Assembly (NCBI RefSeq): GCF_003947415.1
Contig: NZ_QHKL01000001.1
Coordinates: 1,736,001 to 1,800,000, forward strand
DNA length: 64,000 nt
Source: Amycolatopsis sp. WAC 01376
GTDB lineage: Bacteria; Actinomycetota; Actinomycetes; Mycobacteriales; Pseudonocardiaceae
Direction: 5' to 3'
The notes beneath the pieces are model-generated. The model saw nothing but the letters and a program-made list of their open reading frames with translations, ran no database searches and was not told the DNA's origin. This document shows positions 46,540 through 63,976 of the stretch, one piece after another. A program made the translations under genes and the position numbers. How positions within the stretch are numbered: position 1 is the stretch's first letter; each line of letters starts with the position of its first letter.

Positions 46540-47175
46540 TTGACGACAACACCGACCGGCGGGATGCCCGAGTACGACCCGTTCAACGCGCCCGCGCCGC
46601 TGCCTCCGATGCCGGAGGTGGGACCGCCGACACCGTTCCCGAAGCCACGACCGCTGAGTGTGCTCGCCAAGGTTTCGATCGTGCTCGGCGTCGTCGCCGC
46701 GCTGGGCCTGGGGAGCCTGGCCGCCTGGGGGATTTCGCAGTCGAGCAGGTACTCCAAGGTCGAGGCGGGCAAATGCCTGTACCTGACCGACGAGGCGGGC
46801 GGCAACCAGAGCTACACGACCGCCAGCTGCACGTCGAGCCGTGCGACCTTCCGCATCGACGAGGTGCGCACGGGCTCATCCGATTGCCGCGATTCCGATT
46901 ACATCCAGTTCGAGCTGTACGGGAGTTCGTCGAGCAAGAAGGCCCAGAAGACGCTCTGCCTGGCGCTGAACGTCGAGACCGGGGACTGCCTGCGCGACGT
47001 CGTGCACGAGACGCGGATCGCGAAGGTGCGCTGCACGGACATCAGCGCGGAGGCGCGGGCCGTGGTGACGCGGGGGTCGTCGGAGAGCGCGTGCTCGTCG
47101 GACGACACGGCGCTGCACTACACCGGACCGCCCGAGCGGACAGTGTGCTTGCGGCCGACCGGGGAGAACATTTAA
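46540..47175 (+). CDS. LppU-family-like membrane protein
   Basis: The 211-residue protein has a Pro-rich cytosolic N-terminus (about 40 residues), one helix (about 42-65, VSIVLGVVAALGLGSLAAWGI) and an outside domain with six Cys residues (GKCLYL, TASCTSS, SDCRDS, KTLCLAL, GDCLRD, VRCTDI). This spacing matches LppU/SCO3897-type actinobacterial proteins of unknown role. The start is TTG 46540 after GGAGGGGACC. Its TAA shares bases with the stop of the convergent binding-protein gene (overlap of 4 bp around TTAA). Confidence 0.75.
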   Translation: MTTTPTGGMPEYDPFNAPAPLPPMPEVGPPTPFPKPRPLSVLAKVSIVLGVVAALGLGSLAAWGISQSSRYSKVEAGKCLYLTDEAGGNQSYTTASCTSSRATFRIDEVRTGSSDCRDSDYIQFELYGSSSSKKAQKTLCLALNVETGDCLRDVVHETRIAKVRCTDISAEARAVVTRGSSESACSSDDTALHYTGPPERTVCLRPTGENI

Positions 47176-48131
47176 GGCCGCGGCACCAGCGCCTGCACGT
47201 CGAGCCGGGCGCCGATCATGCCCGAGTTGTGCATCAGGTCGGCGACGCGTTGCAGCCGGATGCCGTTGAGGGAGACCGGGTAGGTCCCGAGCGAGATCAG
47301 CGAAGCCGTGGTGCGGTCGATGTCGGAGAACGTCGGCAGCGCGTCGCGGACGACGGCGGAGTCGGCCGCTCGCACCTGCGCTTCGCCGAGCACCTTCCGG
47401 AACGCCGCGAGCGTGCGGGCGTTGCCCTGGCCGAAGGCCCCTGACGAGACGTAGGCCGACATCGGGAAGTCCAGGGTCGCGCCGCGGGCGCCGTCGGCGA
47501 GGATGCTCGCCCCGAGTTCCTTCTCGGCCCTGGTGATGTACGGCTCGACCATCCACGCGGCGTCGACTTCGCCCGCCTGCAATGCCTGCGGCATCCGGTC
47601 GAACGGGTGCTGTTTGAACTGGATCCGGGTCACGTCGATGCCCGCGGTCCCGAAGACCGATCGGGCGGCCAGCACGCCGACGTCGTCGAGCATGTTCACC
47701 GCGATCTTCGGTGACTTCTTGAGCGTCGGCTCGGTGTAGTCGGAGCCGGGGAGTGTGACGAGCGCCATGGTGTTGCGGCCGGCGGTGTAGGCCTCGCCCT
47801 GGAGTTGCAGTGGCGTCCCGGCCGCGGCGGCGCGGAAGATCGAGACGTCGCTGGCGAACGCGATGTCGACTTCGCCCGCGGCGAGCTTGCCGATCGCCTG
47901 GTCGCCGGGGACATCGACGAGGGTGACGGAAAGGCCCGCGGCGGTGAACTTCCCTTCGGCGACGGCGACCCGCAGGGGTGCCGTGTCGATGGGGCTTCCG
48001 ACGCCGACGCGTAGTTCCGTCCGTTCGAGTGGCGCGTCGGTGCTTGCGTCACCACCGGAAAACACTCCGCAACCGGCGATCGCCAGCAGGGCCGCTACCA
48101 GCGGAATCGCCAAGACGCGCATCTTCGTCAC
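47172..48131 (-). CDS. NitT/TauT-type solute-binding lipoprotein (orphan)
   Basis: The 319-residue protein has a lipoprotein signal (ALLAIAGC, mature Cys near 21) and an NMT1/SsuA-type periplasmic binding fold: VGVGSPIDTAPLRVAVAEGKF, AAGEVDIAFASD, VDAAWMVEPYI. Its C-terminal IRLQRVADLMHNSGMIGARL matches the two binding proteins of the ABC cluster at 56-58 kb (pattern RLQRVPDLLxxxGxI). No permease or ATPase is next to it; instead it diverges from a histidine-kinase gene. It may deliver ligand to that sensor or serve the distant permease. Confidence 0.85.
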   Translation of the reverse strand: MTKMRVLAIPLVAALLAIAGCGVFSGGDASTDAPLERTELRVGVGSPIDTAPLRVAVAEGKFTAAGLSVTLVDVPGDQAIGKLAAGEVDIAFASDVSIFRAAAAGTPLQLQGEAYTAGRNTMALVTLPGSDYTEPTLKKSPKIAVNMLDDVGVLAARSVFGTAGIDVTRIQFKQHPFDRMPQALQAGEVDAAWMVEPYITRAEKELGASILADGARGATLDFPMSAYVSSGAFGQGNARTLAAFRKVLGEAQVRAADSAVVRDALPTFSDIDRTTASLISLGTYPVSLNGIRLQRVADLMHNSGMIGARLDVQALVPRP

Positions 48132-48277: not shown

Positions 48278-51022
48278 ATGTCAGCCATGGGAAAGGGTCC
48301 CGTGGTGGGAAAAGGAAACCAGGTGGCCCGTCGCGACAAGCGTCCCCGTGGGGGCGACGCGGCGGAACGGCATCCTCGTGTCGGCGGACGATGGCGGCTC
48401 CGGAACTGGCACCTGCGGACCAAGCTCTTCGTGGTGCTCCTGATCCCCGCGCTCGCGGTGGTCGCCCTCGTCGGGCTCCGGGTCGACTCGGATCTGCGTG
48501 ACGCCCGGCAGCTGGCCGAATTCGCCACCCGCGGCCGGGTCGACAGCACCGTCGCCGAAGCCGTGCACCAGCTCCAGCGTGAACGGGACCTCACCGTCCG
48601 GTTCGTCGCGGGCGATCGCAAGGGCGACGTCTCCGAACTGACCGAGCAGCGCAAGCGCGCCGACGAAGCCATCGGCACCTTCGACCGCACCCTCGGCGAA
48701 AGCAAGAACAGGCTCGGCGGCAAGGCCGCGACGAGTCTGCAACTGACCAGCGACCGCCTGCGCGTGCTCACCGGACTCCGGTTTTCCGCGGAACACTCGG
48801 CTTTTCCCGCCGACGCGGTGCTGCGCTCCTACAGCGAACTGATCTCCGGCCTGCTCGACATCAGCGATGCCACCGCCGCCGACGTATCCGATCCGGATCT
48901 GGGGAAGCTCCGCCTCGCGGGCAACGCCCTCGCGCGGGTCAAGGACCAGATGTCGGTCAAGCGCGCGATCATGGCGGCCGCGCTCGCCCAGGGCGGTCTC
49001 AACCGCGACCGGACCCGGGCGCTGCTCGGCGCGGAGGCCGAACTCGCCGCCGCCCGCAACGATTACCGCACCTTCGCGACACCCGAGCAGCAGCGGATGT
49101 ACGACGACACGGTGATCGGCCTGATCGTCGACATCGGCAACGACATGGTGGAGTCGGCGCTCATCCGCGCCGAGAACGATCAGGGGCTCGGCGGGCTGGA
49201 CCCGAACCAGTGGGACACCTCGGCCACCTACACGGTCAACCTGGCCCATCAGGTGCAGCAGGCGCTGCTCGTCCAGTTGCAGGAACGCACCGACACCCTG
49301 GCGGCACAGGCTAGAACGTCCGCGATCTGGGACGGCGGCATCGTGCTCGGCGTCCTGCTCGTCGCCGGGGTGCTCTCGGTGATCATCGCGCGTTCGCTGT
49401 TGCGGCCGCTGCGGATCCTGCGCCGCAGCGCGCTCCAGGTCGCCGAACACCAGCTCCCGGCGGCCGTCGCAGGTCTGCTCAGCGATCCCGAACCGCAGCC
49501 GGAGAACCTGCGGCGACGGCTGGCCGTCGCGCCGGTCCCGGTGTTCAGCCGCGAGGAACTCGGCCAGGTGGCGCGCGCGTTCGACGCGGTGCACGGCGAG
49601 GCGGTCCGGCTCGCCGGGGAACAGGCCATGCTGCGGGAGAACATCAACGCGATGTTCGTGAACCTGTCGCAGCGGAGCCAGGATCTGGTCGAGCGGCAGC
49701 TGTCCGTGCTGGACCGCATGGAGGCCGACGAACAGGATCCCGACACGCTCGCCGGGCTCTTCGAGCTCGACCACCTCGCGACCCGGATGCGCCGCAACAG
49801 CGAGAACCTGCTGGTGCTCTCCGGGACCGACGTCGTCCGTGAGGACGGTGGCGCCGTCGTCGCCGACGAGATCATCGGCGCCGCGCTCTCGGAGGTCGAG
49901 CACTACCAGCGGATCGAACTCGGCGCCGCGCCGCGGATCGCGGTGCGCGGCGAGGCCGTCAACGACCTCGTGCACGTGGTCTCCGAACTGCTGGAGAACG
50001 CGACCCGCTATTCGGACCGGAGCACGATGGTGCAGGTCGAGGGGCACGAGACCGAACGCGGCGAATGGCAGATCGAGATCACCGACCACGGCGCCGGGAT
50101 GCCGCAGGCGGAGATCGACCGCACCAACGCGCGGCTGGCGAACCCGCCGGACGTCGACGTCGAGGTTTCGCGGCGGATGGGCCTGTTCGTGGTCGCGACA
50201 CTGGCCGTCCGGCACCGGATCGATGTCCGCCTGCGGTCTGCCGACGGCGGCGGGATCACCGCGGTGGTCGTCGTGGTCGCCGCGCTCATCGTCGAAGCGC
50301 CCCAGGCCGCCCAACTGCCGGAGCCCCCGCCCGTCGTCGTCGTTTCCGAGCCGGAACCCGAGCCGCCGCTGGAAGTCCCGCCGCTGCCCGAACCGGAGGA
50401 GAGCGTCGAGGAGTCGCGGTTCGCGCCCGTGCTGGATCCCGGGCCGCTGCGGCGCGCTCCCGTCGTCGAACGCGAGACCCAGCCGGAGTGGCCGTCTTCG
50501 GACGACGACGCCGCCAACCATCTCGAGCTGGACTCGCCGACGGAGCGGATGCCCAAGTACCAGAGCGTGCTTTCGCAGTGGTTCGACCACGGCGGCCCGC
50601 GCGAAGGGCCTTCGCCCGCCGAACCCGGCCCGCCTTCCTTGCCCTCGTTCGAACCGGTGAAGGCGGCCGAGGGGAGCGCCGCGCGGGAGGAACCCGCGCA
50701 GGACCCGGACGAGCCGACCGAGCCGACGCTGAAGCCGGTGCGGCCGAAGGCTCTGGTGCCGAAAGAAAGGGCGCCGGAGCCGGAACCCGCTTGGCCGACA
50801 CCCGCCGAGCTGGAACAAGAGGACGGGGCGGAGGAGACCTGGCCGGTGCTGCCCGCCGTCGTTCCCGAGGCCCGGTCGCAGGACGACAGGCCGGAGAAGC
50901 CGCGAGGGGAGAGGCCGATACTCTCACTTTCCCCCGAAGCGGTCCGCGAACGGATGACCAGCCTGCAAGGCGGATTCCGGCGCGGTCGCCACGCCAGGGG
51001 TGACGACAACCCCTCGGACTAA
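48278..51022 (+). CDS. Conservon-type histidine kinase (orphan CvnA)
   Basis: The 914-residue sensor has TM1 (about 48-66, LFVVLLIPALAVVALVGL) and a large extracytoplasmic nitrate/nitrite-sensing-type helical domain (VHQLQRERDLTVRFVAGD). TM2 (about 355-378) and a HAMP domain (RPLRILRRSALQVAEHQLPA) follow. The kinase core has the H-box-like [22 protein letters not shown] (His499), N-box SELLENATRYS and DHGAGMP. The last 240 residues are Pro/Glu-rich with MPKYQSVLSQWFDHGG and a basic C-terminal MTSLQGGFRRGRHARG. It is a paralog of the kinase at 58963 but has no Roadblock, DUF742 or GTPase genes beside it. ATG 48278 chosen by analogy to that paralog (MSxMG). Confidence 0.88.
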   Translation: MSAMGKGPVVGKGNQVARRDKRPRGGDAAERHPRVGGRWRLRNWHLRTKLFVVLLIPALAVVALVGLRVDSDLRDARQLAEFATRGRVDSTVAEAVHQLQRERDLTVRFVAGDRKGDVSELTEQRKRADEAIGTFDRTLGESKNRLGGKAATSLQLTSDRLRVLTGLRFSAEHSAFPADAVLRSYSELISGLLDISDATAADVSDPDLGKLRLAGNALARVKDQMSVKRAIMAAALAQGGLNRDRTRALLGAEAELAAARNDYRTFATPEQQRMYDDTVIGLIVDIGNDMVESALIRAENDQGLGGLDPNQWDTSATYTVNLAHQVQQALLVQLQERTDTLAAQARTSAIWDGGIVLGVLLVAGVLSVIIARSLLRPLRILRRSALQVAEHQLPAAVAGLLSDPEPQPENLRRRLAVAPVPVFSREELGQVARAFDAVHGEAVRLAGEQAMLRENINAMFVNLSQRSQDLVERQLSVLDRMEADEQDPDTLAGLFELDHLATRMRRNSENLLVLSGTDVVREDGGAVVADEIIGAALSEVEHYQRIELGAAPRIAVRGEAVNDLVHVVSELLENATRYSDRSTMVQVEGHETERGEWQIEITDHGAGMPQAEIDRTNARLANPPDVDVEVSRRMGLFVVATLAVRHRIDVRLRSADGGGITAVVVVVAALIVEAPQAAQLPEPPPVVVVSEPEPEPPLEVPPLPEPEESVEESRFAPVLDPGPLRRAPVVERETQPEWPSSDDDAANHLELDSPTERMPKYQSVLSQWFDHGGPREGPSPAEPGPPSLPSFEPVKAAEGSAAREEPAQDPDEPTEPTLKPVRPKALVPKERAPEPEPAWPTPAELEQEDGAEETWPVLPAVVPEARSQDDRPEKPRGERPILSLSPEAVRERMTSLQGGFRRGRHARGDDNPSD

Positions 51023-51717: not shown

Positions 51718-51806
51718 GCCGTACGCAAGGGGTCAGGTCCAGACCACATACGGTGATACGAGGTTGCATCTTCAACTATCGGGTTCCGACCAGATACCGT
51801 GTGGTC

Positions 51807-53390
51807 ATGGCTACCCGCACCGTACGTGACGCGACCAGGGAACTGCTGCGCGATCTGGGCCTGACCACCGTTTTCGGCAATCCCGGCACGACCGAGATCG
51901 CCTTCCTGACGGAATGGCCGGACGACTTCACCTACGTCCTCGCGCTCCACGAGGCGTCCGTCGTCGCGATGGCCGACGGGTACGCGCGGGCGACGCGGCG
52001 GGCGACGCTGGTGAACCTGCACTCCGCCGGCGGGGTCGGCCACGCGCTCGGGCACATCTTCACCGCGTACCGCAACAACGCGCCGCTGATCATCGTCGCC
52101 GGCCAGCAGACCAGGTCGCTGCTGCCGGACGATCCGTTCCTCGGTGCCGTCGAGGCGGCGAACTTCCCCAAGCCGTACGTGAAGTGGAGCTGCGAACCGG
52201 CGAGGGCCGAGGACGTCCCGGCGGCGCTGGCGCGGGCGTATCACGTCGCGACCCAGGCACCGATGGGTCCGGTGTTCGTCTCGGTACCCGTGGACGACTG
52301 GGACGTCGAGACCACGAAGCCGATCGTCTCCCGGCCGACGATCCGCGGTTTCGCGCCCGATCCGTCCGCTTTGGACGAATTGGTGTCCGCTTTGGACGCC
52401 GCCGAGCATCCGGCCATCGTGGTCGGCGCGGGTGTCGACGACGAGGGCGCCGTACCGGATCTCGTCGAGCTGGCCGAGAAGGTCGGCGCGGGCGTCTGGG
52501 CGTCGCCGATGGCGGCGCGTTGCTCGTTCCCCGAGGACCACCCGCAGTTCTTCGGTTTCCTGCAGCCGGAACGCAAAATGCTCGCGAGCGCGCTGATCGA
52601 CCACGACCTCGTGGTCGTCATCGGTGCCCCGGCGTTCATCTACCACGTGTACCGCGGCGAGTCGGAGATCTCGATGCCGCCGCTGTTCGTGGTCAACGCC
52701 GACGAACAGGTCCTCGCCAGGGCCGAGGCGGGCACCGGCATCCGCGCGACGCCGAAGCTCGCGATCCGCGCGCTGCTGGAGCGCGCCGCGCCGCGGGAGG
52801 CGCCGAAATCCCGCGCCCGGATGGAAAAGCCCGCCGCGGTCACCCCGATCACGCCGGGCTTCGCCTACTCGGTGATCTCGGAAGTCCTGCCGGACAACGC
52901 GATCGTCGTCGAAGAGACCCCGAGCCACCGCAACGAACTGCACGACCACCTGCCGATCAAGTCCACCGACTCCGGCTTCTTCACCGTCGCCAGCGGCACC
53001 CTGGGCTACGGCCTGCCCGCCGCCGTCGGCGTCGCGCTGGCCCGCCCGGACCGCAAGGTCGTCGCCATCCTCGGCGACGGGTCGAGCATGTACTGCGTCC
53101 AGGCACTGTGGACGGCGGCGCAGCAGCACCTGCCGGTGACGTTCGTGATCTTCGACAACTCGCAGTACGCCGCCGTGCGCATCCTCGGCGAGGCCGCGGG
53201 CGGCGAGAAGGTGCCGGGCGTCGACCTCGGCGGCATCGATTTCCCGGCGCTGGCGAAGAGCCTGGGGCTGGGAACGTCCGTCGTCGAGAAGGCCGAAGAC
53301 CTCAAGCCGACGCTGGAAGCCGCGCTGCCGGACGAGCGGCCGCATCTGGTGCACGTCCGCATCGACGCGAACCCCCGCACGCTGTACTGA
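51807..53390 (+). CDS. mdlC: Benzoylformate decarboxylase-like ThDP enzyme
   Basis: The 527-residue thiamine-diphosphate enzyme closely follows the Pseudomonas BFD layout. FGNPGTTEIAFL has Thr28 where BFD has the active-site Ser26; Glu49 in LHEAS; NLHSAGGVGHALG with His72; FIYHVY with His280; and GDGSSMYCVQALW with FDNSQYA for Mg-ThDP. All key residues but Ser are kept. It likely decarboxylates an aryl- or branched 2-oxo acid. No other mandelate-pathway genes are near. The upstream region has an imperfect inverted repeat (GACCACATACGGT/ACCGTGTGGTC) overlapping its leader. Confidence 0.88.
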   Translation: MATRTVRDATRELLRDLGLTTVFGNPGTTEIAFLTEWPDDFTYVLALHEASVVAMADGYARATRRATLVNLHSAGGVGHALGHIFTAYRNNAPLIIVAGQQTRSLLPDDPFLGAVEAANFPKPYVKWSCEPARAEDVPAALARAYHVATQAPMGPVFVSVPVDDWDVETTKPIVSRPTIRGFAPDPSALDELVSALDAAEHPAIVVGAGVDDEGAVPDLVELAEKVGAGVWASPMAARCSFPEDHPQFFGFLQPERKMLASALIDHDLVVVIGAPAFIYHVYRGESEISMPPLFVVNADEQVLARAEAGTGIRATPKLAIRALLERAAPREAPKSRARMEKPAAVTPITPGFAYSVISEVLPDNAIVVEETPSHRNELHDHLPIKSTDSGFFTVASGTLGYGLPAAVGVALARPDRKVVAILGDGSSMYCVQALWTAAQQHLPVTFVIFDNSQYAAVRILGEAAGGEKVPGVDLGGIDFPALAKSLGLGTSVVEKAEDLKPTLEAALPDERPHLVHVRIDANPRTLY

Positions 53391-53539: not shown

Positions 53540-54409
53540 TCAGCTCTTCGCGCGCACCTCGGAGGTGGCAGCGTCGGCTGCGGCGTCCTGCTGCGCGAGT
53601 TCGTACTCGGCCGCGTCGGAAGCCGCGGTGACGGCTTCCGGGGCGCCACCGTGCAGCAGCCGCGCCACTTCACCGCGCAGCGTCACGAACTCAGCGGACT
53701 CGCGCGTGGTGATCTGGTTCCGCTCCGCGGGCAGCCCGACCGGCAGATCCGCGACGATCTTGGCGGGTGACTTCGACAGCACCAGCACCCGGTCCGACAG
53801 GTAGACGCTCTCGTCGATGTCGTGCGTGACAACGAGAACCGTGCTGCCGTTCTCGCGCTGCACGCGCCGGGTCAGGTCTTCGAGTTCGAACCGCGTCTGC
53901 GCGTCGACCGACGCGAACGGCTCGTCCATCAGCAGCAGGGCGGGACGGCTGGCCAGTGCTCGCGCGATCGACACGCGCTGCTGCATACCGCCCGAGAGCT
54001 GCCACGGGAACTTCGAGCCGACTTCGGACAGGCCGACCGAATCCAGCGCCTCCTGCGCCCGCGTCCGGCGCTCGGAGCGGCTCAAGTTACGCCACCGCAA
54101 GGGGAATTCGACGTTCTTCGCAACCGAGAGCCACGGGAACAGCGAGCGGCTGTAGTCCTGGAACACCACGGCCAGATCCTCCGGCACGCCGGAGACGTCA
54201 TCGCCGTGCAGGCTGACGCGGCCGGACGTCGGCTTGATCAGCCCGGCGATGCAGCGCAGCAGCGTCGACTTGCCGCAGCCCGACGGACCGACGATGCTCG
54301 CGAGCTGTCCCGCTTCCACGGTGAACGACAGATCGTTGACCGCGATGTGCGCCTTTTCTCCCGCGCCGTAACGGTGGTTCAGCCCGGAGACTTCGAGCAT
54401 GGTTGACAT
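53540..54409 (-). CDS. NitT/TauT-family ABC transporter ATPase
   Basis: The 289-residue ATPase has Walker A GPSGCGKST, Q-loop VFQDYSRSLFPW, signature LSGGMQQR, Walker B LLLMDEPFASVD and H-loop VTHDIDES. These belong to the nitrate/sulfonate/taurine-type importers (SsuB/TauB). The last 50 residues extend past the domain with an Ala/Glu-rich tail. It is the last gene of the five-gene importer unit (binding proteins, two permeases, ATPase), 19 bp after the second permease. Confidence 0.93.
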   Translation of the reverse strand: MSTMLEVSGLNHRYGAGEKAHIAVNDLSFTVEAGQLASIVGPSGCGKSTLLRCIAGLIKPTSGRVSLHGDDVSGVPEDLAVVFQDYSRSLFPWLSVAKNVEFPLRWRNLSRSERRTRAQEALDSVGLSEVGSKFPWQLSGGMQQRVSIARALASRPALLLMDEPFASVDAQTRFELEDLTRRVQRENGSTVLVVTHDIDESVYLSDRVLVLSKSPAKIVADLPVGLPAERNQITTRESAEFVTLRGEVARLLHGGAPEAVTAASDAAEYELAQQDAAADAATSEVRAKS

Positions 54410-54428
54410 CTTGCTGACCCTTCGAAAA

Positions 54429-55262
54429 CTAGAGACGGCCGTTGCGGGTGGGCTGCCAGCGGAGCACTCTCTGCTCCACCGCGAGGAAGGCCGCGTTGAA
54501 CCCGAAGCCGAGGAGCCCGAGCAGGACGAGCCACGACCACATGAGCGGGAAGTCGAACGCCTGCTGGGCGTCCATCAGTGACCGGCCGATGCCGTTGTAG
54601 GAGCCGACCAGTTCCGAGATCACCATCAGCAGCAGGGAAATGGACAGGCTCAGCCGCAGCCCCGCGAAGATCTTCGGCCCGGCGGCGGGAAGCACGATCG
54701 AGCGCACCCAGTACGACCGCGGGGTCCGGAACGATTTCGCGGTGTCGATCTTCACCTGGTCCACCGACCGGACACCGTCCACGGTGTTGAGCAGCACCGG
54801 CCAGATCGCGCCGAAGATGATCGATCCGGTCTGCATGCCCGGCCCGAGTCCGAAAAGGACGATGAACACCGGGATCAGCGCGGGCGGCGGCACCGAGCGG
54901 AAGAACGCGAAAAGCGGTCCGACGTAGTCCATCCCGGTCCTGGACCGGCCGAGCATGACCCCCAGCGCGACGCCGATCGCGCCGGCCAGCAGCCAGCCGC
55001 CGAGTGTCCGGCCGAGGCTCGGCAGGACGTTGGCGAACACGGTGTCGGTGAGGAACAGTTGTGAGGCAGGGCCGGTGAACCACAGTTTCGCCGACGTGGT
55101 CAAGATTTCGGTCGGCGGCGGGAAGAACGGGCTCTCCGCGAGCCGGGTCGCGAGCTCCCAGATCCCGAGCAGGGCGAAGAAGAGCAGCCAGTTGCGGACG
55201 AGGATGCCGATACCCCGGCCCACGCGCCTGCCGACGCGGCTGGTCAGCGTGAGGGTCGTCAC
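54429..55262 (-). CDS. ABC transporter permease (inner subunit B)
   Basis: The 277-residue permease of the BPD_transp_1 class has about six helices. The EAA loop is VDQVKIDTAKSFRTPRSYWVRSIVLPAAGPKIF, followed by GLRLSLSISLLLMVISELVGSYNGIG. Start GTG 55262 overlaps the stop of the other permease (GTGA). It probably forms a heterodimer with it. Confidence 0.92.
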   Translation of the reverse strand: MTTLTLTSRVGRRVGRGIGILVRNWLLFFALLGIWELATRLAESPFFPPPTEILTTSAKLWFTGPASQLFLTDTVFANVLPSLGRTLGGWLLAGAIGVALGVMLGRSRTGMDYVGPLFAFFRSVPPPALIPVFIVLFGLGPGMQTGSIIFGAIWPVLLNTVDGVRSVDQVKIDTAKSFRTPRSYWVRSIVLPAAGPKIFAGLRLSLSISLLLMVISELVGSYNGIGRSLMDAQQAFDFPLMWSWLVLLGLLGFGFNAAFLAVEQRVLRWQPTRNGRL

Positions 55263-56029
55263 GAGACCGCCTCCCGGTCGACCGTGCTCCAGCGGAACGC
55301 CCGCCTGCCGATCATCTCGAGTCCGCCGTTGATGAGGAAGCCGAGCGCGCCGACCACCACGGTGCCCGCGAGCACGAGGTCGAACCTGGTGGAGCCGGTG
55401 CTGGCCTGCATGATGAAGTTGCCGATGCCGAGTTTGGCCCCGGCGAGGAATTCGGTGCTGACCACCGCGATCAGCGCGATGTTGGCGGACAGCCGGACCC
55501 CGGTGAACACGAACGGCGCGGTATGCGGCAGCGCCACCGACGTCAACGTCCGGAACTTGCTGGTACCGCAGGCTTTCGCGGTCTCCTGCAGGACGGGGTC
55601 GATCTCGCCGAGCGCGTAGATCGTGTTGAACATGATGGGCCACAACGACGCGTACACGGCCAGCGTGATCTTCGCTTCGGGGCCACCGCCGATCAGCAGG
55701 AGCACCAGCGGGATCAGCGCGACGGCGGGGATCGGCCGCAGGAACTCGATGACCACCGCGGTCGCGGTGCGCAGGCCGGGGATGCTGCCCAGCAGCAGAC
55801 CGGCGGGTACGGCGACGGCGACGGCGATCAGCAGGGCGATCGCCCACGCGAGGAACGTGGCGATCAGGTCCCGGATGAACTGCGTCTCGCCGAACTGTTC
55901 GAAGATCGTCACGAGGACGACGGTCGGCGGGGGAAGGAACTCTTTACGGACCAGGCCGGCCTGGACGATCGCTTCCCAGACGAGGAAGAAACCGGCCAGA
56001 CCGGCCAGGGCACGGAGAAGTCGTGGCAC
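55259..56029 (-). CDS. ABC transporter permease (inner subunit A)
   Basis: The 256-residue SsuC/TauC-like permease shows FLPPPTVVLVTIFEQFGE, FLRPIPAVALIPLVLLLIGGGPEAKI, the EAA loop DPVLQETAKACGTSKFRTLTSVALPHTAPFVFTGVR, and ANIALIAVVSTEFLAGAKLGIG. GTG 56029 is 8 nt after the stop of the binding-protein gene, with a weak AAGG. It differs in sequence from subunit B, so the channel is a heterodimer. Confidence 0.92.
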   Translation of the reverse strand: MPRLLRALAGLAGFFLVWEAIVQAGLVRKEFLPPPTVVLVTIFEQFGETQFIRDLIATFLAWAIALLIAVAVAVPAGLLLGSIPGLRTATAVVIEFLRPIPAVALIPLVLLLIGGGPEAKITLAVYASLWPIMFNTIYALGEIDPVLQETAKACGTSKFRTLTSVALPHTAPFVFTGVRLSANIALIAVVSTEFLAGAKLGIGNFIMQASTGSTRFDLVLAGTVVVGALGFLINGGLEMIGRRAFRWSTVDREAVS

Positions 56030-56037
56030 CTTGACCT

Positions 56038-57060
56038 TTATCCAGCTTGAGGGGCGAGCATCGGAGCGGCGTCGAGCTTGGCCGAGATCACTCCGGTCTG
56101 CAGCAGCAGATCCGGCACGCGCTGCAGGCGACGGGCGTCCAGGGTGGCCCCGAACGTCGGCAGCGTGAGCAGTGAGGCGGTTTCGGCGTCGACCTTGGCG
56201 TACTTGACGATCATCGGTTCGATCTTGGAGCGGTCGGCCGATTCGCGCACGGCCTTGGCCAGTGCGCGCTGGAACGCGGCCAGCGTCTTCGGGTTCTTGT
56301 CCACGAAGGAGCCGAGCGCGCCGAAGCCGGCCAGGGGGAAGTCCGTGGTGGCGCCGGTCGCGATGTCGACGATCGGGGTCGCGCCGACGACCTTGGAAGC
56401 CTGGGTCAGGAAGGGCTCGGGCAGGTAGCCCGCGTCGACCTGGCCCGAGCCGAGAGCGGCGGCGATGTTGGGCAGCTGCATCGGCACCCACTGGACCTTG
56501 CTGGTGTCGACGCCGTGGTCCTTCATCACCGAGACGGTGAGCAGGTGGGAGGCGGTGTTCTTGTCGGTGATCGCGATCTTCTTGCCCGCGAGGTCGTTGA
56601 TCGTCTTGACCGTGGAGTTCGGCACCGTGACGACCGCGTTGCTCTTGGGGCTGGCCGACACGGAGTCGGCGACGAGCCGGATGTCGGCGGCGCCCTTGCT
56701 CTTCGCGACGAAGAACGGCATGTAGGTGGAGAAGGCGATGTCGACCTCGCCACCGATCATCTTGGTCATCGCCTGCTGGCCGCTGGGGGCGTCGACGGCT
56801 TCGACCTCGAGACCTTCGGCCTTGAAGTAGCCGGCCTCCTGCGCCAGCCGCAGCGGAGCGAGGTCGACGACGGGCAGCAGGGCCACCTTGATCTTCGGTT
56901 TCTCCAGTGCGCCGTCACCACCACCGGACGCTTTGGACGTGTCATCGCCGCCGAGGGCGCCACAGGCACCCAACGTGGCCAGCATGAGCGCGCTCAGGGC
57001 GACGCCGATGGCACCTCGGCCTCTACGCGCACCACTCCTGCTCATGGCGTTTCGAAACAA
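56038..57060 (-). CDS. Solute-binding lipoprotein 1 of the ABC importer
   Basis: The 340-residue NMT1/SsuA-fold protein has a lipobox LATLGAC, a DLAPLRLAQEAGYFKAEGLEVE start to the ligand fold, GGEVDIAFSTYMPFFVAKS, VDAGYLPEPFLTQAS and the end RRLQRVPDLLLQTGVISAKL. It is a close paralog of binding protein 2. TTG 57060 was chosen because GAGGAG lies 6 nt upstream; an ATG 15 nt later has none. It captures a small anionic or amine-type solute and hands it to the permeases. The substrate is unknown. Confidence 0.9.
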   Translation of the reverse strand: MFRNAMSRSGARRGRGAIGVALSALMLATLGACGALGGDDTSKASGGGDGALEKPKIKVALLPVVDLAPLRLAQEAGYFKAEGLEVEAVDAPSGQQAMTKMIGGEVDIAFSTYMPFFVAKSKGAADIRLVADSVSASPKSNAVVTVPNSTVKTINDLAGKKIAITDKNTASHLLTVSVMKDHGVDTSKVQWVPMQLPNIAAALGSGQVDAGYLPEPFLTQASKVVGATPIVDIATGATTDFPLAGFGALGSFVDKNPKTLAAFQRALAKAVRESADRSKIEPMIVKYAKVDAETASLLTLPTFGATLDARRLQRVPDLLLQTGVISAKLDAAPMLAPQAG

Positions 57061-57140
57061 AGCCAGCTCCTCGGAAACAATGAATCACCGTTGGGGTTTT
57101 TTCATCCGTGTCGTGGCTTCGATTCGCCAGGCACGCGGTC

Positions 57141-57169
57141 ACCTTAGAGATTTGCCCACCTGCTCACAA
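57141..57169 (-). promoter_or_regulatory. Promoter of binding protein 1
   Basis: Minus-strand TTGTGA (57164-57169) and TAAGGT (57141-57146) are 17 bp apart. The 14-nt block around the -35 (GCTCACAATGGGTG on the plus strand, 57162-57175) is identical in the promoter of binding protein 2. Confidence 0.65.
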
Positions 57170-57180
57170 TGGGTGTTGTC

Positions 57181-57228
57181 AGCGGGTGATCATTTTAGGC
57201 CATTCGCCCGATCACCTGATCACCCGCT
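57181..57228. promoter_or_regulatory. Operator-like inverted repeat upstream of binding protein 1
   Basis: AGCGGGTGATCA (57181-57192) and TGATCACCCGCT (57217-57228) are perfect 12-bp complements with a 24-nt spacer, containing another GATCACC. It lies just upstream of the -35 in the 233-bp gap between the two binding-protein genes. GATCACCCG also occurs at about 58471, near the other promoter. Confidence 0.6.
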
Positions 57229-57293
57229 TGGACAACATTACTTTCAGTGATCGAATTACGGGTGGAACCGCAATTCGGAGTAACCGCGTGTCA

Positions 57294-58322
57294 TCAGCTG
57301 GTGGTCTGCGGCGCGATCATCGGGCCGACGTCGATCTTGGTCTGGATGGCGCCCATCTGCAGGAGCAGGTCCGGGACCCGCTGGATGCGGCGGGGGTCCA
57401 GGGTGGACTGGAAGGTCAGCAGCGTGGTCAGCGCGGCGGTGTCCTGGTCGATCTTGGCGTACTTGACCAGCAGCGGCTCGATCTTGGAGCGGTCCGCGGC
57501 GTCCCGGGTGGCCTTCTGCATGGCGCGCTGGAAGGCGGCCACGGTCTTCGGGTTCTCGTTCACGAACTTGCCGAGCGACCCGTAGCCCGCGGTGGGGAAG
57601 TCCTGGGTGGCGCCGGTGGCGGTGTCCACGACCGGCACGGTGCCCGCCTGCTTCGCGGTCTGGGTGATGAAGGGCTCGGTCAGGAAGCCGGCGTCGATGT
57701 CACCGTTCTTGAGCGCGGCTCCGACGTTCGGCAGCTGGATCGGGACCCACTGCACCTTGCTCGCGTCGACGCCGTGGTCCTTCATGACCGATTTGGACAG
57801 TGTGTCGGACACGGTGTTCGGCGCGGTGATGCCGATCTTCTTGCCCGCCAGGTCGCTGACGCTCTTGACCGTCGACGTCGGCAGGGTGACCAGCATCGTG
57901 CTCTTCGGACCGGCGGAGGAGGCGTCCGCGACCAGCTTGATGTCCGCGGTGCCCTTGCTCATCGCGATGAAGAACGGCGTGTAGCTCGCGTACGCGATGT
58001 CGACCTCGCCGCCGATCAGCTTGGTCAGCGAGACCTGGCCGGTCGCGGCTTCGATCGCCTCGACGTCGAGGCCCTCGTTCTTGAAGTAGCCGCCGTCCTG
58101 CGCGAGGCGCAGCGGGGCGAGGTCGATGGTCGACATCACGGCGACCTTGATCTTCGACTTCTCGAGGTTCCCCGAGCCGCCGGAGGAGGACGAATCGTCG
58201 CCGCCGAGGAGGCCACAGCCGCTGACCGATACCGAAACGACGGCCGCCATCGCGAAGGCGAGGGCTCCACGCCGGCCCAGGCTGACGCTCAAGGCCTTCT
58301 TCGAGCTTGCAGAGCCAAGCAA
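57294..58322 (-). CDS. Solute-binding lipoprotein 2
   Basis: The 342-residue protein parallels binding protein 1: lipobox region VSVSGC, TIDLAPLRLAQDGGYFKNEGLD, GGEVDIAYASYTPFFIAMS, VDASKVQWVPIQLPN, AGFLTEPFITQT and RRIQRVPDLLLQMGAIQTKI. The start TTG 58322 has CAGGAG 7 nt upstream. Tandem duplication followed by divergence suggests two ligands or two affinities for one permease. It is divergent from the conservon kinase. Confidence 0.9.
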   Translation of the reverse strand: MLGSASSKKALSVSLGRRGALAFAMAAVVSVSVSGCGLLGGDDSSSSGGSGNLEKSKIKVAVMSTIDLAPLRLAQDGGYFKNEGLDVEAIEAATGQVSLTKLIGGEVDIAYASYTPFFIAMSKGTADIKLVADASSAGPKSTMLVTLPTSTVKSVSDLAGKKIGITAPNTVSDTLSKSVMKDHGVDASKVQWVPIQLPNVGAALKNGDIDAGFLTEPFITQTAKQAGTVPVVDTATGATQDFPTAGYGSLGKFVNENPKTVAAFQRAMQKATRDAADRSKIEPLLVKYAKIDQDTAALTTLLTFQSTLDPRRIQRVPDLLLQMGAIQTKIDVGPMIAPQTTS

Positions 58323-58408
58323 AGGGGTGCTCCTGATCAAGGGAGGGACACGTGATGACGTGGCCTGATGTGGAATTCGGAAGTGACTCTTTGTCGAGCC
58401 ACGGGCCC

Positions 58409-58437
58409 ACTGTAGAGAACGGACACAGCGCTCACAA
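58409..58437 (-). promoter_or_regulatory. Promoter of binding protein 2
   Basis: Minus-strand TTGTGA (58432-58437) and TACAGT (58409-58414) have a 17-bp spacer. It shares the 14-nt block 58430-58443 with the binding-protein 1 promoter at 57162. The 640-bp gap 58323-58962 holds this promoter and the leader structures listed next; no gene is supported there. Confidence 0.65.
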
Positions 58438-58553
58438 TGGGTGGTCATCCCATGATCCCAAGTGGTAACGATCACCCGAACAGGTTGTTTGTCAGAAGTG
58501 AACACAACTGGGCGTGTTCGTGGCGGGGACTTGTTGACAACTGAGCGCCAACG

Positions 58554-58592
58554 GGTCAAGACCCGTACGGGGTCTTCTTGCACGTCTTGACC
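58554..58592 (+). promoter_or_regulatory. Overlapping alternative stems in conservon leader
   Basis: GGTCAAGAC (58554-58562) can pair with GTCTTGACC (58584-58592). Alternatively AAGACCC (58558-58564) can pair with GGGTCTT (58570-58576). The two stems share bases and exclude each other. This resembles an RNA switch or attenuator, or else overlapping operators. Confidence 0.4.
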
Positions 58593-58669
58593 GAAGGGTT
58601 ACATCTGGCCCTCCCGTTCGCTACCCTCATGCACCGGTAGTGAGGTGTGGACCACTGATGTAGTGAAAG

Positions 58670-58724
58670 AGAGTGCCTTGGATGGCCGAACGCTCTGGAC
58701 CTTTCCCGAGGTGCAAGGCACTCT
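58670..58724. promoter_or_regulatory. Long-spaced inverted repeat upstream of conservon
   Basis: AGAGTGCCTTG (58670-58680) and CAAGGCACTCT (58714-58724) are perfect 11-bp complements with a 33-nt spacer, about 240 bp before the kinase ATG. Possible operator pair or leader stem. Confidence 0.5.
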
Positions 58725-58962
58725 GTGTTGAACACGTCGAACACGTCCGTGCTTCACTGGTGCGTCCCCGCGCACTGGCGGGTTGGGCCGAATAGACCAA
58801 TGGCGTCAGGCAGGGTTTCGGTCAAGTGCACTTGAGAGACTGCGTCAAAGACGACTTCCGCATTTCCAGGAGTGGACCCGCACGCCGTGCGCGCCCCTCC
58901 AGGGTGACGGGAGCGAGCGGATAGTGGTCTCCGACAACCGACCCAGACAGCAGCAGTACGGC

Positions 58963-61900
58963 ATGTCCAAAATGGGCTTTCCCGGCCCGGATGAAGATGA
59001 TGGTGGTGCGGCGGTGCCGAACGAAGACACCGCGGGGGTGGGAGGGGCCCCTGCGCGGGATACCGGAGACGGTCCTGGCGGGAAGGCCGGGTCGTTCCTG
59101 GGCCTGCGTAACTGGCGTCTGCGATCGAAGCTCGCGGCCGTTCTGATCATCCCGACGCTGACCGCGCTCGCGCTCGGCACGCTGCGCGTGATCGACGACA
59201 GCAGCGAGGCGGCACGGTTCCAGGACACGGCCGACCAGGTCGCGTTCGCCGACAAGATCACGCTCGTGGTGCACGAGCTGCAGAGCGAACGCGCGCTCGC
59301 CGTCGCCAAGATCGCCTCCGGTGACGCGTCGCGCCAAGCCGGTCTCGACGCGCAGATCTCCAAGGTCGACCGCGCGGTCGACGATCTGCGGGCTTCGGCG
59401 AACCAGATCAACCCGGACGATCAGGACACGAGGGACCGTTATTCGCGTGGTCTGCAGCGGCTCGACGCCCTGCGCCCGCTGCGCGGCGCGATGAACACCT
59501 CGCTGCTGGGCGACACCCCGGTCCTCATCGCCTACTCCGGCATCCTCGACTCGCTGGTCCAGCTCGGCCGCGAGGTGACGACCGCGGTGGCGAACCGCGA
59601 CGTGCTCCGACTCGGCGTGACCGTGCAGGCCGTCAGTGAGAGCAAGGAGTTCATCGCCCGCGGTGACGCGGCGCTGCTGATCGCCTCCTTCCGCTCCTCG
59701 TTCCCCGGCGACCTGTTCGACCAGGCGCGTTCGGCGGTCGCGAGCGGTGACGCCTCGACGGCGGCCTTCCTCGCCAACGCCAGCCCCGAACAGCGGCAGC
59801 TCTACTCGGACACCTTCTCCGGCCCCGAGGTCGACGACCGCCGCCGGATCACCACGATGGCGTTTTCGCTGCACCAGCAGAACGAGCCGCCGTCGATCGA
59901 CAACGTCGCGCTCGGCAACGACAGCCGGGTCGCGCTGGACAAACTGCGCGCGGTCGAGACCAATCTGCTCGGCCAGCTGCGGGCACAGGCCGACGAACTG
60001 GCGACCGACGCGATCAACTCGGCCTGGATCGGCGGCGCGATCGTGCTGCTGGCCCTGCTCGCGGCGCTGTTCCTGATGCTCGTCATCGCCAGGCTGATGC
60101 TGCGCCCGCTGCGGATCCTGCGGAAGACCGCGCTCGACGTCGCGTACACACGACTGCCGGAAACCGTGCAAGCGATCCTCGACGACCCGGACCCGGTCAA
60201 CGCCTCGAAGCGGTCGGTCGAGCCGGTGCCGGTCACCTCGCGTGACGAGATCGGTGAAGTGGCGCGGTCCTTCGACGTCGTCCATGCACAGGCCGTCAAG
60301 ATGGCCGCCGAGCAGGCCCTCCTGCGAGAGAACGTCAACGGCATCTTCGTGAACCTGTCCCGCCGGTCGCAGCGCCTGGTGGAACGCCAGCTCGGCGTGA
60401 TCGACCGGCTCGAGGCCGACGAGCAGGACCCGGACCACTTGGCCAGCCTGTTCGAGCTCGACCACCTCGCCACGCGGCTGCGCCGCAACGGTGAAAGCCT
60501 CCTGGTGCTCTCGGGCGCCGGTCTCGCGAAGTCGGTGCCCAAGCCGGTGCCTGCCGCCGACGTCATCGGCGCCGCGGTCTCGGAGATCGAGCAGTACGCC
60601 CGGATCGAGATCGGGATCGTCCCCGAGGTCGCCGTCCAGGGCCTGACGATCCACGACCTCGTGCACGTGCTCGCGGAACTGCTGGACAACGCCACCTACT
60701 TCTCCGAGCCGGAGACGAAGGTGACCGTCCGCGCGGTGATCACCCGCAAGAAGGCGCTCGCCATCCAGGTCACCGACCACGGTGTCGGCATGACCGAGGA
60801 GCGGCTCGCCGAGGTCAACCAGCGCCTGGCCGACCCGCCGGACCTGGACGTCTCGGTGACCCGGCGGATGGGCCTGTACGTGGTCGCGCGCCTGGCGCGC
60901 CGCCACGGTATCGAGGTCCGGCTGCGGGAGAACGAGGACATCGAGGGCGGCGTGATCGCGCGGGTCGTCGTGCCCGCCGAACTGCTCACGCAGATGCGGC
61001 CCGGCGTGCGGACCCCGCCGCCGTCGAACCGCTCGGAAACGTCGATGCCTTCGATGCCGTCGGCGTCCGAGATGTCGACGTCGCTGCCGAACATCTCCGC
61101 TTCCGACCGCGGCCTGGAGATGACCCCGCCGCCGCCGTCGAAGCCGCCGGCTTCGCAACCGATCGCGCAGCAGGGCGGGCTCGTCCCGCTCGATCAGCCG
61201 ATCAGCCTCGACGACCTGGTCGCGGGCAAGAACGCGGCCGGACCGTTCCTCAGCCCGGCGGTCCCCGCCGAGGAGACCCCGGCGTGGCCGACGGCGGAGG
61301 ACATCTCGCCGCCGAACGGCGACGGCGCCTCCAGCGGCACCGAGACCCAGTTCTCGTCGCTGGTGCTGCCGAAGCGGGAGCCGAAGTACAACCCGGTCGA
61401 AACGCCGAACAGGGCCGTGGGGTTCTCGGAGTCTTCGGCTTCCGAGCGGTCTTCGGACGAAGGCAAGTCGGCGCTCGACGACGACGTGCCCACCCGGCGG
61501 CTGCCGATCTACCAGTCGGTGCTGTCCCGTTGGTTCAGCGAAGGCGACGAGGCAGGCGCCGACACCCCGACCACCTACACGGAGCCGGTCGAGTCCGCCC
61601 TGCCCGAGCAGACCCGCGACACCGCCGCCGACGCGGTGGAACCCGACGTCGGGGACACTGGCGACACTCCCGAAGAGGCATTGCCCACTCGGACCCCTCG
61701 GACTGTTCCGCCGGAGACCGCGCTCCAGGACAATGGCTGGCGCAGCGCGTCGGACGACGGCTGGCAGGCGGCACAGGTCCTGTACGAAGACCGGAACGAC
61801 GAGATCACCCCGGCGGGCCTGCCGAAACGGGTGCCGAACCAGTATCTCGTCCCCGGCTCGATCGGCGGGAACGAGCCGAAGAAGGAAGACTCGTTCGCCG

Positions 61901-62097
61901 ACAAGACCTCCGGAATGCCGGGAACGGGTGCGATCGCCCGCTCGGCGACGGCGGCGAGGAGTCGGATGGCAAGCTTCCAGCAGGGCTACAAGTCGGGACG
62001 GCACGCGTTGAAGGATCGTCCGATCGACGCGCTGGATGACAACGGCGTTCCGGTGACCGGCGGAGGTTCCTCCGCCGATGACAGCAGTAAGGAGTGA
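58963..62097 (+). CDS. Conservon histidine kinase CvnA
   Basis: The 1044-residue sensor has TM1 (about 54-73, [19 protein letters not shown]), an outside NIT-type helical domain ([19 protein letters not shown]), and TM2 (about 350-373). HAMP ([21 protein letters not shown]) and the kinase core follow, with [22 protein letters not shown] (His501), [11 protein letters not shown] and DHGVGMT. The C-terminal 360 residues are Pro/Ser/Glu-rich, contain [16 protein letters not shown], and end with a basic [18 protein letters not shown]. It heads the four-gene conservon. GTG 58924 (13 codons earlier) is an alternative start; ATG 58963 matches its paralog. Divergent from binding protein 2. Confidence 0.9.
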
Positions 62098-62099
62098 CA

Positions 62100-62576
62100 G
62101 TGACACGGGCGGGTGCGATGCAGCCGGGTGGTCCGGCGCAGCCTGGCGGCCAGGCGCAGGGTAAAGGACACACGAGCAGCTTTGCCTGGCTGATCACGGA
62201 TTTCGTGCACCGGGTCCCGGGCGCGGCGCATGCCGTGGTGGTGTCGGCGGACGGTTTGCTGCTGGCCTCTTCGAAGGGACTTCCCAAGGACAGGGCCGAT
62301 CAGCTGGCCGCGGTCGCGTCGGGGCTCACGAGCCTGGCGCGCGGTGCGGCGAAGGTGTTCGAAGGCGGCACGGTCGCGCAGACGGTGGTCGAGATGGCCA
62401 ACGGCTTCCTCTTCCTGATGTCGGTGTCCGACGGGTCCTGTCTGGCGGTCCTCGGATCGCCGGAGAGTGACATCGGCCTGGTCGTCTACGAGATGACCTT
62501 GCTGGTGGAACGGGTGGGGCAACAGCTGACACCGGAGATGCGCGCGCAGCTGCAGGGCGCGTCGGTCCGCCGCTGA
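62100..62576 (+). CDS. Roadblock/LC7 conservon protein CvnB
   Basis: The 158-residue protein has a Gly/Gln/Pro-rich N-terminus (about 25 residues) and a Roadblock/LC7 fold: [55 protein letters not shown]. Such proteins act as GTPase-activating or dimer-scaffold partners of the conservon G protein. GTG 62100 is 6 nt after AAGGAG; GTG 62094 overlaps the kinase stop but buries that site. Confidence 0.92.
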
Positions 62577-62601
62577 GCGACCGGGAACCGAGGAGAATGC
62601 C

Positions 62602-63387
62602 GTGGACGACGGGCGCTTGAGGGGCGATGGCCGGCTCGGTGACGACTTCTCCGGCGGGTGGTCGGAACGTGACGACGGCCGGGAGGACTGGACGTCCTTC
62701 CGGGACCGGGTCGACCGCGAATGGCGATCGCGACGGGCACAGGGGTCGGACAATGACCCCGTGTCCCCGGACGAGGCCTCCCGCTGGCTGACCGATTCGA
62801 ACGCGGGACAGGGACCCGCCGATTTCAGCGTCACGGACTACCGGGAACGCCTGCTCGGCGGACCCGGGGCCGAACTGTTCGGTGGTGGCAGCGGCCCGCT
62901 CTACGATTCCGGCGAGTTCGCCAAGTTCTCCTTCGACAAGGAGGAGGAACGCCGGGCGGCCGCGGCCGCCGCGGATCCGCTCGCCGCGGCACTGCCGCAG
63001 CAGGCACAGAACGAATACGTCGACGAGCAGTACACCACCGACGTCGAATCATCCGGCCTGGTCCGGCCGTACTTCCGCACGCGGGGACGGACCAAGCCGA
63101 CGTACGACCTTGCCATCGAGGCGTTGATCTCGACCAGTGAACAGGGACGTGTGCTCGACCGGGTACGCGTCCCCGAACACCGGTCGATCTGCGACCTTTG
63201 CCTGGACACCCGGTCCGTCGCCGAAGTCGCGGCGCTGTTGCGCCTGCCGCTCGGCGTGGTCCGGGTGCTGATCGGAGACGTGGCCGGCCTCGGCCTGGTC
63301 CTGGTGCACACTGCCAGCCAGAACGTTGGTGACCGGCCCAGTATCGAGTTCATGGAGAGGGTGCTCAGTGGGCTTCGGAGAATTTGA
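62602..63387 (+). CDS. DUF742 conservon protein CvnC
   Basis: The 261-residue protein has a C-terminal DUF742 winged-helix-like domain (LVRPYFRTRGRTKPTYDLAIEALIST to SIEFMERVLSGL). An unusually long acidic N-terminal extension of about 140 residues (GWSERDDGREDWTSF and so on) precedes it; most DUF742 proteins are about 110-140 residues in all. GTG 62602 has GAGGAGA before it. It overlaps the GTPase gene by 20 bp. Confidence 0.9.
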   Translation: MDDGRLRGDGRLGDDFSGGWSERDDGREDWTSFRDRVDREWRSRRAQGSDNDPVSPDEASRWLTDSNAGQGPADFSVTDYRERLLGGPGAELFGGGSGPLYDSGEFAKFSFDKEEERRAAAAAADPLAAALPQQAQNEYVDEQYTTDVESSGLVRPYFRTRGRTKPTYDLAIEALISTSEQGRVLDRVRVPEHRSICDLCLDTRSVAEVAALLRLPLGVVRVLIGDVAGLGLVLVHTASQNVGDRPSIEFMERVLSGLRRI

Positions 63388-63976
63388 CTCCGACGCGAAT
63401 GCGCCGCAGGTGGCCGGGCCGACGTCGTCGGCCAAGATCGTGGTCGCTGGCGGATTCGGCTCGGGGAAGACCACGCTGGTCGGAGCGGTTTCGGAGATCG
63501 ATCCGCTGACCACCGAGGCCATGATGACCGAGGCCAGTACCGGCGTCGACGACAATTCGGCCACCCCGAACAAGTCGACGACGACCGTGGCCATGGACTT
63601 CGGCCGGATTTCGCTGGACTCGGATCTGGTGCTGTACGTGTTCGGTACGCCGGGCCAGCACCGGTTCTGGTTCATGTGGGACGACCTCGCGGTCGGCGCC
63701 ATCGGTGCCGTCGTGCTGGTCGACACGCGGCGGCTCGCCGACGCGTTCCCGTCGATCGACTTCTTCGAGAACCGGAAGCTGCCGTACGTCGTGGCGATCA
63801 ACTGCTTCGACCGGCTGCTGCACCACCAGATCGAGGACGTCCGGCACGCGCTGACGATCTCGCCGTCCGTGCCGATCATGGCCTGTGACGCCAGGGAGCG
63901 TGACTCCGCCAAGCAGGTGTTGATCTCGGTCGTGCAGCACGCCATCGCACACGATTCGGCGTTGCGCGCGGGCTAA
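63368..63976 (+). CDS. Conservon GTPase CvnD (MglA-like)
   Basis: The 202-residue small G protein has G1 GGFGSGKTT (28-36; Lys34), switch STGVDDNSATPNKSTTTVAMDFG, G3 FGTPGQHRFW and the G4-like NCFD (AINCFDRLL). Conservon GTPases relay kinase/Roadblock signals, as in Streptomyces Cvn systems. GTG 63368 lies inside the end of the DUF742 gene with GAGAGGG upstream, indicating tight coupling. It is the last complete gene; only 24 bases follow, with nothing identifiable. Confidence 0.93.
   Translation: MGFGEFDSDANAPQVAGPTSSAKIVVAGGFGSGKTTLVGAVSEIDPLTTEAMMTEASTGVDDNSATPNKSTTTVAMDFGRISLDSDLVLYVFGTPGQHRFWFMWDDLAVGAIGAVVLVDTRRLADAFPSIDFFENRKLPYVVAINCFDRLLHHQIEDVRHALTISPSVPIMACDARERDSAKQVLISVVQHAIAHDSALRAG

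Follow-up and report, generated by a model that had tools for sequence, protein, structure and literature searches.

In XylFII-LytS, TorT-TorS, LuxP-LuxQ and ChvE-VirA the sensor domain of a kinase receives its signal from an external binding protein, and these kinases feed two-component response regulators. In the part of PMC11113362 drawn on here, 10 of 11 binding-protein-activated kinases were genomically associated with the protein that activates them; two adjacent binding-protein/kinase cases showed no activation. The conservons of Streptomyces coelicolor (Cvn1-13, CvnF8-CvnA8) are four-gene operons for a kinase, a Roadblock protein, a DUF742 protein and a GTPase, and the locus described below is built alike. 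According to sections of PMC13343842, an accessory protein can modulate a conservon kinase, CvnE (a P450) and CvnF (a GAF protein) accompany CvnA kinases without a sensory domain, and the signal sensed by NIT-bearing CvnA remains to be tested; an excerpt of PMC8510531 places NIT domains in Cvn1-6. Among the open-licence papers listed in searches, none described, in its title or abstract opening, a binding-protein input to conservons or NIT kinases. Here we analyse a conservon with a NIT-bearing kinase, and the importer divergent from it, in a 64,000-nucleotide stretch of Amycolatopsis sp. WAC 01376 (NZ_QHKL01000001.1, positions 1,736,001 to 1,800,000; the window), and report that a binding-protein gene recurs beside kinases of this type.

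The whole arrangement spans 53540-63976 of the window, with a minus-strand importer and a plus-strand conservon reading outward from one intergenic stretch. A sequence-only reading of this DNA had described a complete conservon divergent from a five-gene importer with two binding lipoproteins, and Pfam domains together with the coordinates confirmed it:

53540..54409, minus strand: NitT/TauT-type importer ATPase (PF00005, E 1.1e-35)
54429..55262, minus strand: importer permease B (PF00528, BPD_transp_1; gene call)
55259..56029, minus strand: importer permease A (PF00528, BPD_transp_1; gene call)
56038..57060, minus strand: SBP2, NMT1-type binding lipoprotein, second in order (PF09084/PF13379; lipobox read by eye)
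57294..~58328, minus strand: SBP1, NMT1-type binding lipoprotein divergent from cvnA (PF09084/PF13379; lipobox by eye)
58924..62097, plus strand: cvnA, NIT-domain sensor kinase (NIT, HAMP, HATPase_c; gene call)
59266..59979, plus strand: NIT sensor domain of cvnA, the proposed docking site
62094..62576, plus strand: cvnB, Roadblock/LC7 protein (PF03259)
62602..63387, plus strand: cvnC, DUF742 protein (PF05331)
63326..63976, plus strand: cvnD, small Ras-like GTPase (PF03029), which retrieves GTPases of other conservons as homologues

By Pfam, the cvnA-B-C-D order that marks a conservon (kinase, Roadblock, DUF742, small GTPase) is present at 58924-63976, and the importer has the composition of the NitT/TauT type, with an NMT1 protein, two BPD_transp_1 permeases and an ATPase in a single run. 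The start of SBP1 was taken from a ribosome-binding site read by eye, and its open frame extends to 58355 and further. SBP1 and SBP2 are 62-63% identical, and an AlphaFold2 model of SBP1 (pLDDT 86) had SsuA, TauA and Thi5 as its nearest folds. Related loci were retrieved mostly from Amycolatopsis (22 of 25), the nearest binding-protein matches being 96-97% identical. A protein of the SBP1/SBP2 type adjoined cvnA in all 22 named Amycolatopsis loci; the presence of two binding proteins was not constant, several Amycolatopsis loci having one.

To follow this pairing among relatives, we used the NIT domain and SBP1 of the window as queries against 80 genomes from 46 genera of the same family. The NIT domain gave 120 matches in 74 genomes and 44 genera, and SBP1 matched in 71 genomes, the best 150 matches being used for it and likewise for DUF742. 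At least 88 of the 120 NIT matches had a binding-protein match within 2 kb, in 66 genomes and 39 genera, and all 88 of these binding-protein genes lay 5' of the kinase gene; 79 were divergent from it and 9 shared its strand. Within 5 kb, at least 90 of the 120 were paired, where 0.34 would be expected in a 7-Mb genome; among the matches listed, 7 NIT-bearing genomes lacked a pair within that distance. The pairing, whose absence from related genera would have told against the sequence-only reading, was thus present in 39 of 44 NIT-bearing genera among the matches listed. When the listed DUF742 matches were divided according to whether a window-like NIT domain lay within 8 kb, 47 of the 51 with one had an NMT1 gene within 10 kb as opposed to 0 of the 99 without, where "without" means no match at E 1e-6 to the window's NIT domain and is not proof that a NIT domain is absent. 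The printed p for this split (1e-34) overstates independence because the species are related; the split itself stands without it. Pairing was found for 45 of 53 NIT matches with a listed DUF742 match nearby and for 43 of 67 without. We concluded that the arrangement is genuine and general across the family, that among the family's conservons the pairing is confined to those whose NIT kinase is window-like, and that a binding-protein gene recurs beside the kinase gene here as it does in the class of binding-protein-activated kinases.

The same genome held further pairs. About 10 kb to the left of the conservon, and missed by the sequence-only reading, lay an orphan kinase and a third binding protein:

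47172..48131, minus strand: SBP3, orphan NMT1-type lipoprotein (PF13379 E 9.6e-14, PF09084 E 3.9e-11)
48287..51022, plus strand: orphan NIT kinase divergent from SBP3 (NIT E 5.4e-43, HAMP, HATPase_c)

SBP3 shares about 35% identity with SBP1 and SBP2. In the gene lists no permease or ATPase adjoined it, and no Roadblock, DUF742 or GTPase genes followed the orphan kinase; the pair recurred in G001, G003, G004 and G010. Elsewhere in the genome, at L056:4872-11578, a binding protein, permease, ATPase, kinase, Roadblock protein, DUF742 protein and GTPase are encoded in succession on one strand, with a 4-bp overlap between the ATPase and kinase genes. The 9.07-Mb genome has 7 NMT1 matches and 6 NIT matches in total. 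The window accounts for three of the 7 NMT1 matches, which adjoin its two NIT kinases; with L056 included, 4 of the 7 adjoin 3 of the 6 NIT kinases, an adjacency far beyond chance.

We then extended the survey to 197 genomes of the class, 78 of which had NIT matches. Loci were drawn around 116 of the listed NIT matches (the best 150 less about 30), and L056 was added, giving 127 NIT kinases for which an upstream gene was visible. In 29 of the 127, one of the first three upstream genes encoded a binding protein, and in 25 the very first one did; as L056 was chosen after its nearby NMT1 gene was known, the count without it is 28 of 126. Some loci were picked while the pattern was already suspected in their family; the first 20 loci and a later 80 were taken from the match list blind to their neighbours. 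The partners, assigned by Pfam or by profiles built from Pfam-assigned cases, were NMT1 proteins in genome families f25 (8), f16 (1) and f1 (1, L056), Peripla_BP_6 proteins in f26 (7) and f10 (2), Peripla_BP_4 proteins in f27 (6), and OpuAC proteins in f25 (3, in importers carrying two OpuAC lipoproteins) and f27 (1). The Peripla_BP_6 genes of L041, L050 and L081 were taken from open frames rather than gene calls. Four kinases below the NIT profile (L077_0, L119_7, L152_7 and L152_12) were counted as NIT kinases on the basis of a sensor-length region in the alignment, three of them lying at or beside Pfam NIT matches; L077_0 and L152_12 are second kinases of their loci, with no Pfam NIT row among the matches listed. 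The incomplete kinases L059_0 and L064_17 were dropped, and L073-L075, drawn as relatives, stand outside the class count.

None of 26 conservons without NIT had a binding protein, compared with the 29 of 127 (Fisher p 0.0045). Since the binding-protein profiles were biased, having been built from neighbours of NIT kinases, the whole of Pfam was run on the control neighbours as well: the 26 controls' first upstream proteins matched 29 families, and no binding protein was among the 25 listed. The same scan of 106 NIT-kinase neighbours gave NMT1 in 10, Peripla_BP_6 in 6 and Peripla_BP_4 in 6. On clustering at 70% core identity, a binding protein occurred in 7 of 30 clusters. A FastTree tree of 155 kinase cores, some of its branches long, called for at least 12 changes of partner label (NMT1 7, Peripla_BP_6 2, OpuAC 2, Peripla_BP_4 1). 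In Planomonospora parontospora (L033) an NMT1 importer was divergent from a kinase that ends at the locus edge and matched cvnA at 35% over the NIT-bearing half.

Two other features of these neighbourhoods were noted. MHYT-domain membrane proteins made up 6 of the 106 neighbours, each the first gene upstream of a NIT kinase in f27 (L116, L121, L122, L139, L141 and L153, named by sequence likeness), and are possibly another accessory sensor class. In L041, L050, L080, L081 and L083 the kinase-adjacent Peripla_BP_6 lipoprotein gene was followed by a NitT-like ATPase and permease, and in L041 and L080 the next gene encoded a lipoprotein of 387-400 amino acids without a Pfam match at E 0.001; at the Peripla_BP_6 loci sensing may fall to the paired protein and feeding to the unmatched lipoprotein.

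Pairing also occurred without a transporter. In the gene lists, SBP3 and the paired binding proteins of L064 (first pair), L092, L042, L072 and L130 were not followed directly by a permease run of their own, and the same was true of the six Peripla_BP_4 lipoproteins and the L152 OpuAC protein. The retention of such orphans beside NIT kinases argues that the binding protein itself has a sensing role. Altogether five binding-protein families (NMT1, Peripla_BP_4, Peripla_BP_6, OpuAC and SBP_bac_3) occupied the kinase-adjacent slot. The SBP_bac_3 case is G004, of the Amycolatopsis genus, in which the synteny of the window is kept (orphan pair, cutC, cvnA-B-C-D and second Roadblock gene) and the slot of the NMT1 importer holds an SBP_bac_3 lipoprotein, a BPD_transp_1 permease and one further protein. 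Its CvnA was 77% identical to that of the window over HAMP-DHp and 84% over HATPase but 31% over NIT, compared with 81%, 80% and 50%, respectively, for G011, which kept the NMT1 importer. Thus, the NIT domain of G004 has diverged out of proportion to the kinase core, together with the importer swap. We also compared NIT with core identity over pairs of kinases, a comparison that pools orthologues and paralogues. At 80-90% core identity, NIT identity was 65.7% when the binding-protein family was the same (24 pairs) and 31.2% when it differed (2 pairs), 33.6% between paired and unpaired kinases (11 pairs) and 49.3% between unpaired ones (147). At 70-75% core identity the values were 49.9 for same (11), 35.8 for different (14), 33.0 for mixed (24) and 32.4 for unpaired (56); the order was less clean at 75-80% (41.5 same, 19; 31.7 different, 5; 37.2 mixed, 24; 47.5 unpaired, 39), and at 60-65% there was no difference among the pair classes.

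From these observations we propose that a ligand-loaded NMT1-type lipoprotein docks on the extracytoplasmic NIT domain of CvnA and thereby switches the Roadblock/DUF742/GTPase relay, a reading that gene arrangement and sequence make fairly probable. SBP1, encoded back to back with cvnA, would bind ligand outside the cell; the loaded protein would dock on the NIT domain; and docking, if ligand-dependent, would alter the kinase and then the Roadblock protein, DUF742 protein and Ras-like GTPase. Through the importer, a single lipoprotein may act in uptake as well as in sensing. For loci with two lipoproteins, our guess would be that SBP1, beside the kinase, is the presenter and SBP2 the feeder. 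The orphan kinase and SBP3 would make up the same kind of sensor, lacking both a transporter and a G protein of its own. More tentatively, and with less confidence than an even case would warrant, the CvnA NIT domain could be a general docking receptor for interchangeable lipoproteins (NMT1, ribose-, leucine-, betaine- and glutamine-type), the kinase and Ras-like GTPase staying constant and the NIT surface being retuned at each swap. Two class-wide counts weigh against the pairing: 98 of the 127 NIT kinases had no binding protein among their first three upstream genes, nor did 20 further NIT kinases from the DUF742 draw. An input role is the best supported reading, docking and signalling being the steps we infer. 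The sequence-only reading had suggested that either ligand capture or transport state feeds the kinase; ligand capture is well supported by the family-wide pairing, the different binding-protein families in the slot and the one swap with a diverged NIT domain, while transport-state sensing became less likely because NIT kinases also pair with orphan lipoproteins without a permease.

The divergent layout and shared intergenic region would also suit a conservon that controls transcription of the importer, its lipoproteins never touching the kinase. A short repeat lies upstream of both binding-protein genes:

57163..57175, minus strand: 13-bp element CACCCATTGTGAG before SBP2, exact repeat of the SBP1 element
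58431..58443, minus strand: 13-bp element CACCCATTGTGAG before SBP1, exact repeat of the SBP2 element

With one mismatch allowed, these are its only two sites in the whole genome, and the importer therefore seems to be under dedicated control. The element preceded the cvnA-adjacent binding-protein gene at up to one mismatch in all 22 loci L011-L032 and both binding-protein genes in all 10 loci L011-L020; it was not found in L074 (G004) or L201 (G011) at up to two mismatches. It can be read as part of a promoter, with TTGTGA and TACAGT or TAAGGT 17 bp apart as -35 and -10, a reading that stays by eye because a strict promoter scan did not list the element. Against control as the sole link stand the orphan lipoproteins retained beside NIT kinases without a transporter, the binding protein as the item common to different importers, and the NIT divergence that accompanies the importer swap. 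We consider it doubtful that output alone explains the locus, and control of the importer is not exclusive of docking.

A kinase reading the permease or ATPase cycle, like transporter-coupled kinases, would fit L056, where importer and conservon form one run and the ATPase and kinase genes overlap, and also the permeases carried by most f25 NMT1 pairs; SBP3, the first L064 pair, L092, the six Peripla_BP_4 cases and L072/L130, with no permease run of their own, make such a co-sensor very improbable. Direct sensing of nitrate or nitrite by the NIT domain, with nitrate brought in by the importer, has in its favour the PF08376 family, the NasR fold and a binding-protein profile that matches NrtA among others. 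The NIT domain gave no match to the PDB as a single sequence and did match in a profile search; the fold search returned the NasR fold, with the XylFII-LytSN complex also a title among the matches listed, and TorS was not among the best 50 listed, an absence that excludes nothing. NasR, an antiterminator that responds to nitrate, has a NIT domain that controls its RNA-binding domain, and R176 is one of its predicted nitrate-pocket residues (PMC7496416, in the portion drawn on here). CvnA of the window shares the NIT domain of nitrate-sensing receptors and the helix-1 Arg of the pocket but has Asp at the R176 position, as do 26 of 27 Amycolatopsis CvnA orthologues, the remaining one and G004 having Asn. 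Moreover, the importer fell short of the ntrB (97.2 and 73.8 vs 209) and ntrCD cut-offs, and other NIT kinases were paired with Peripla_BP_4, Peripla_BP_6, OpuAC or SBP_bac_3 proteins. Nitrate sensing at this locus is unlikely, and its combination with nitrate import highly improbable. The least probable explanation is inherited synteny without function: neighbours do persist within the genus, the orphan kinase, cutC and the benzoylformate decarboxylase-like gene being kept together, but the pairings extend over several families and five binding-protein families and the control gave 0 of 99.

The importer ligand was not singled out by NCBIfam, solved structures or fold search. The 25 best NCBIfam models listed for the ATPase were all below their cut-offs, as were SsuA_fam (117-122 vs 163.5) and the taurine binding model (65 vs 304), and the solved-structure matches to the binding-protein profile (3qsl, NrtA/CmpC, TauA, SsuA) were all distant. 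Convergent on the importer ATPase at 51801-53390 is a benzoylformate decarboxylase-like gene (PRK07092, 670 bits vs a cut-off of 493), and all 22 named Amycolatopsis loci keep it on that side of the importer. An acyl-CoA-dehydrogenase-like gene lay near the importer in four Amycolatopsis-genus genomes (L196:7770-8987, L199:5862-7079, L200:6163-7380 and L201:6053-7273); its best model was 3-sulfinopropanoyl-CoA desulfinase, with SfnB further down, all below cut-off. As hints to the substrate, the decarboxylase-like and desulfinase-like neighbours are suggestive only. Just past the window end (L009:15407-16420) the conservon is followed by a second Roadblock and a second DUF742 gene without a second GTPase gene; both also occurred in Amycolatopsis relatives, the Roadblock protein being 94-100% identical in the named loci that reach it. 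A small gene at 46540-47175 of the window is absent from the gene calls.

If the lipoproteins are the input, the ligand of each such conservon could be sought in screens of a soluble protein that is easy to purify, and the route from a nutrient to a Ras-like GTPase would become testable; on this reading, the question of what NIT conservons sense has an answer open to test. Were the NIT domain a general docking receptor, bacteria would have their own counterpart of a receptor-coupled G-protein pathway, its ligand-binding subunit being swappable. In architecture and folds the importer resembles SsuABC, TauABC and NrtABCD; unlike them, it stayed below every NCBIfam cut-off listed and has two lipoproteins, each with its own upstream element. 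Unlike NasR (PDB 4AKK), the NIT domain of cvnA sits in a membrane kinase and lacks an equivalent of R176. The kinase differs from those of XylFII-LytS, TorT-TorS, LuxP-LuxQ and ChvE-VirA in heading a Ras-like GTPase relay and in having a NIT domain as its sensor. Finally, in contrast to the CvnE and CvnF conservons, the partner here is a binding lipoprotein and accompanies a NIT-bearing CvnA, and it would, if the proposal is true, be a third class of accessory protein complementing CvnE and CvnF.

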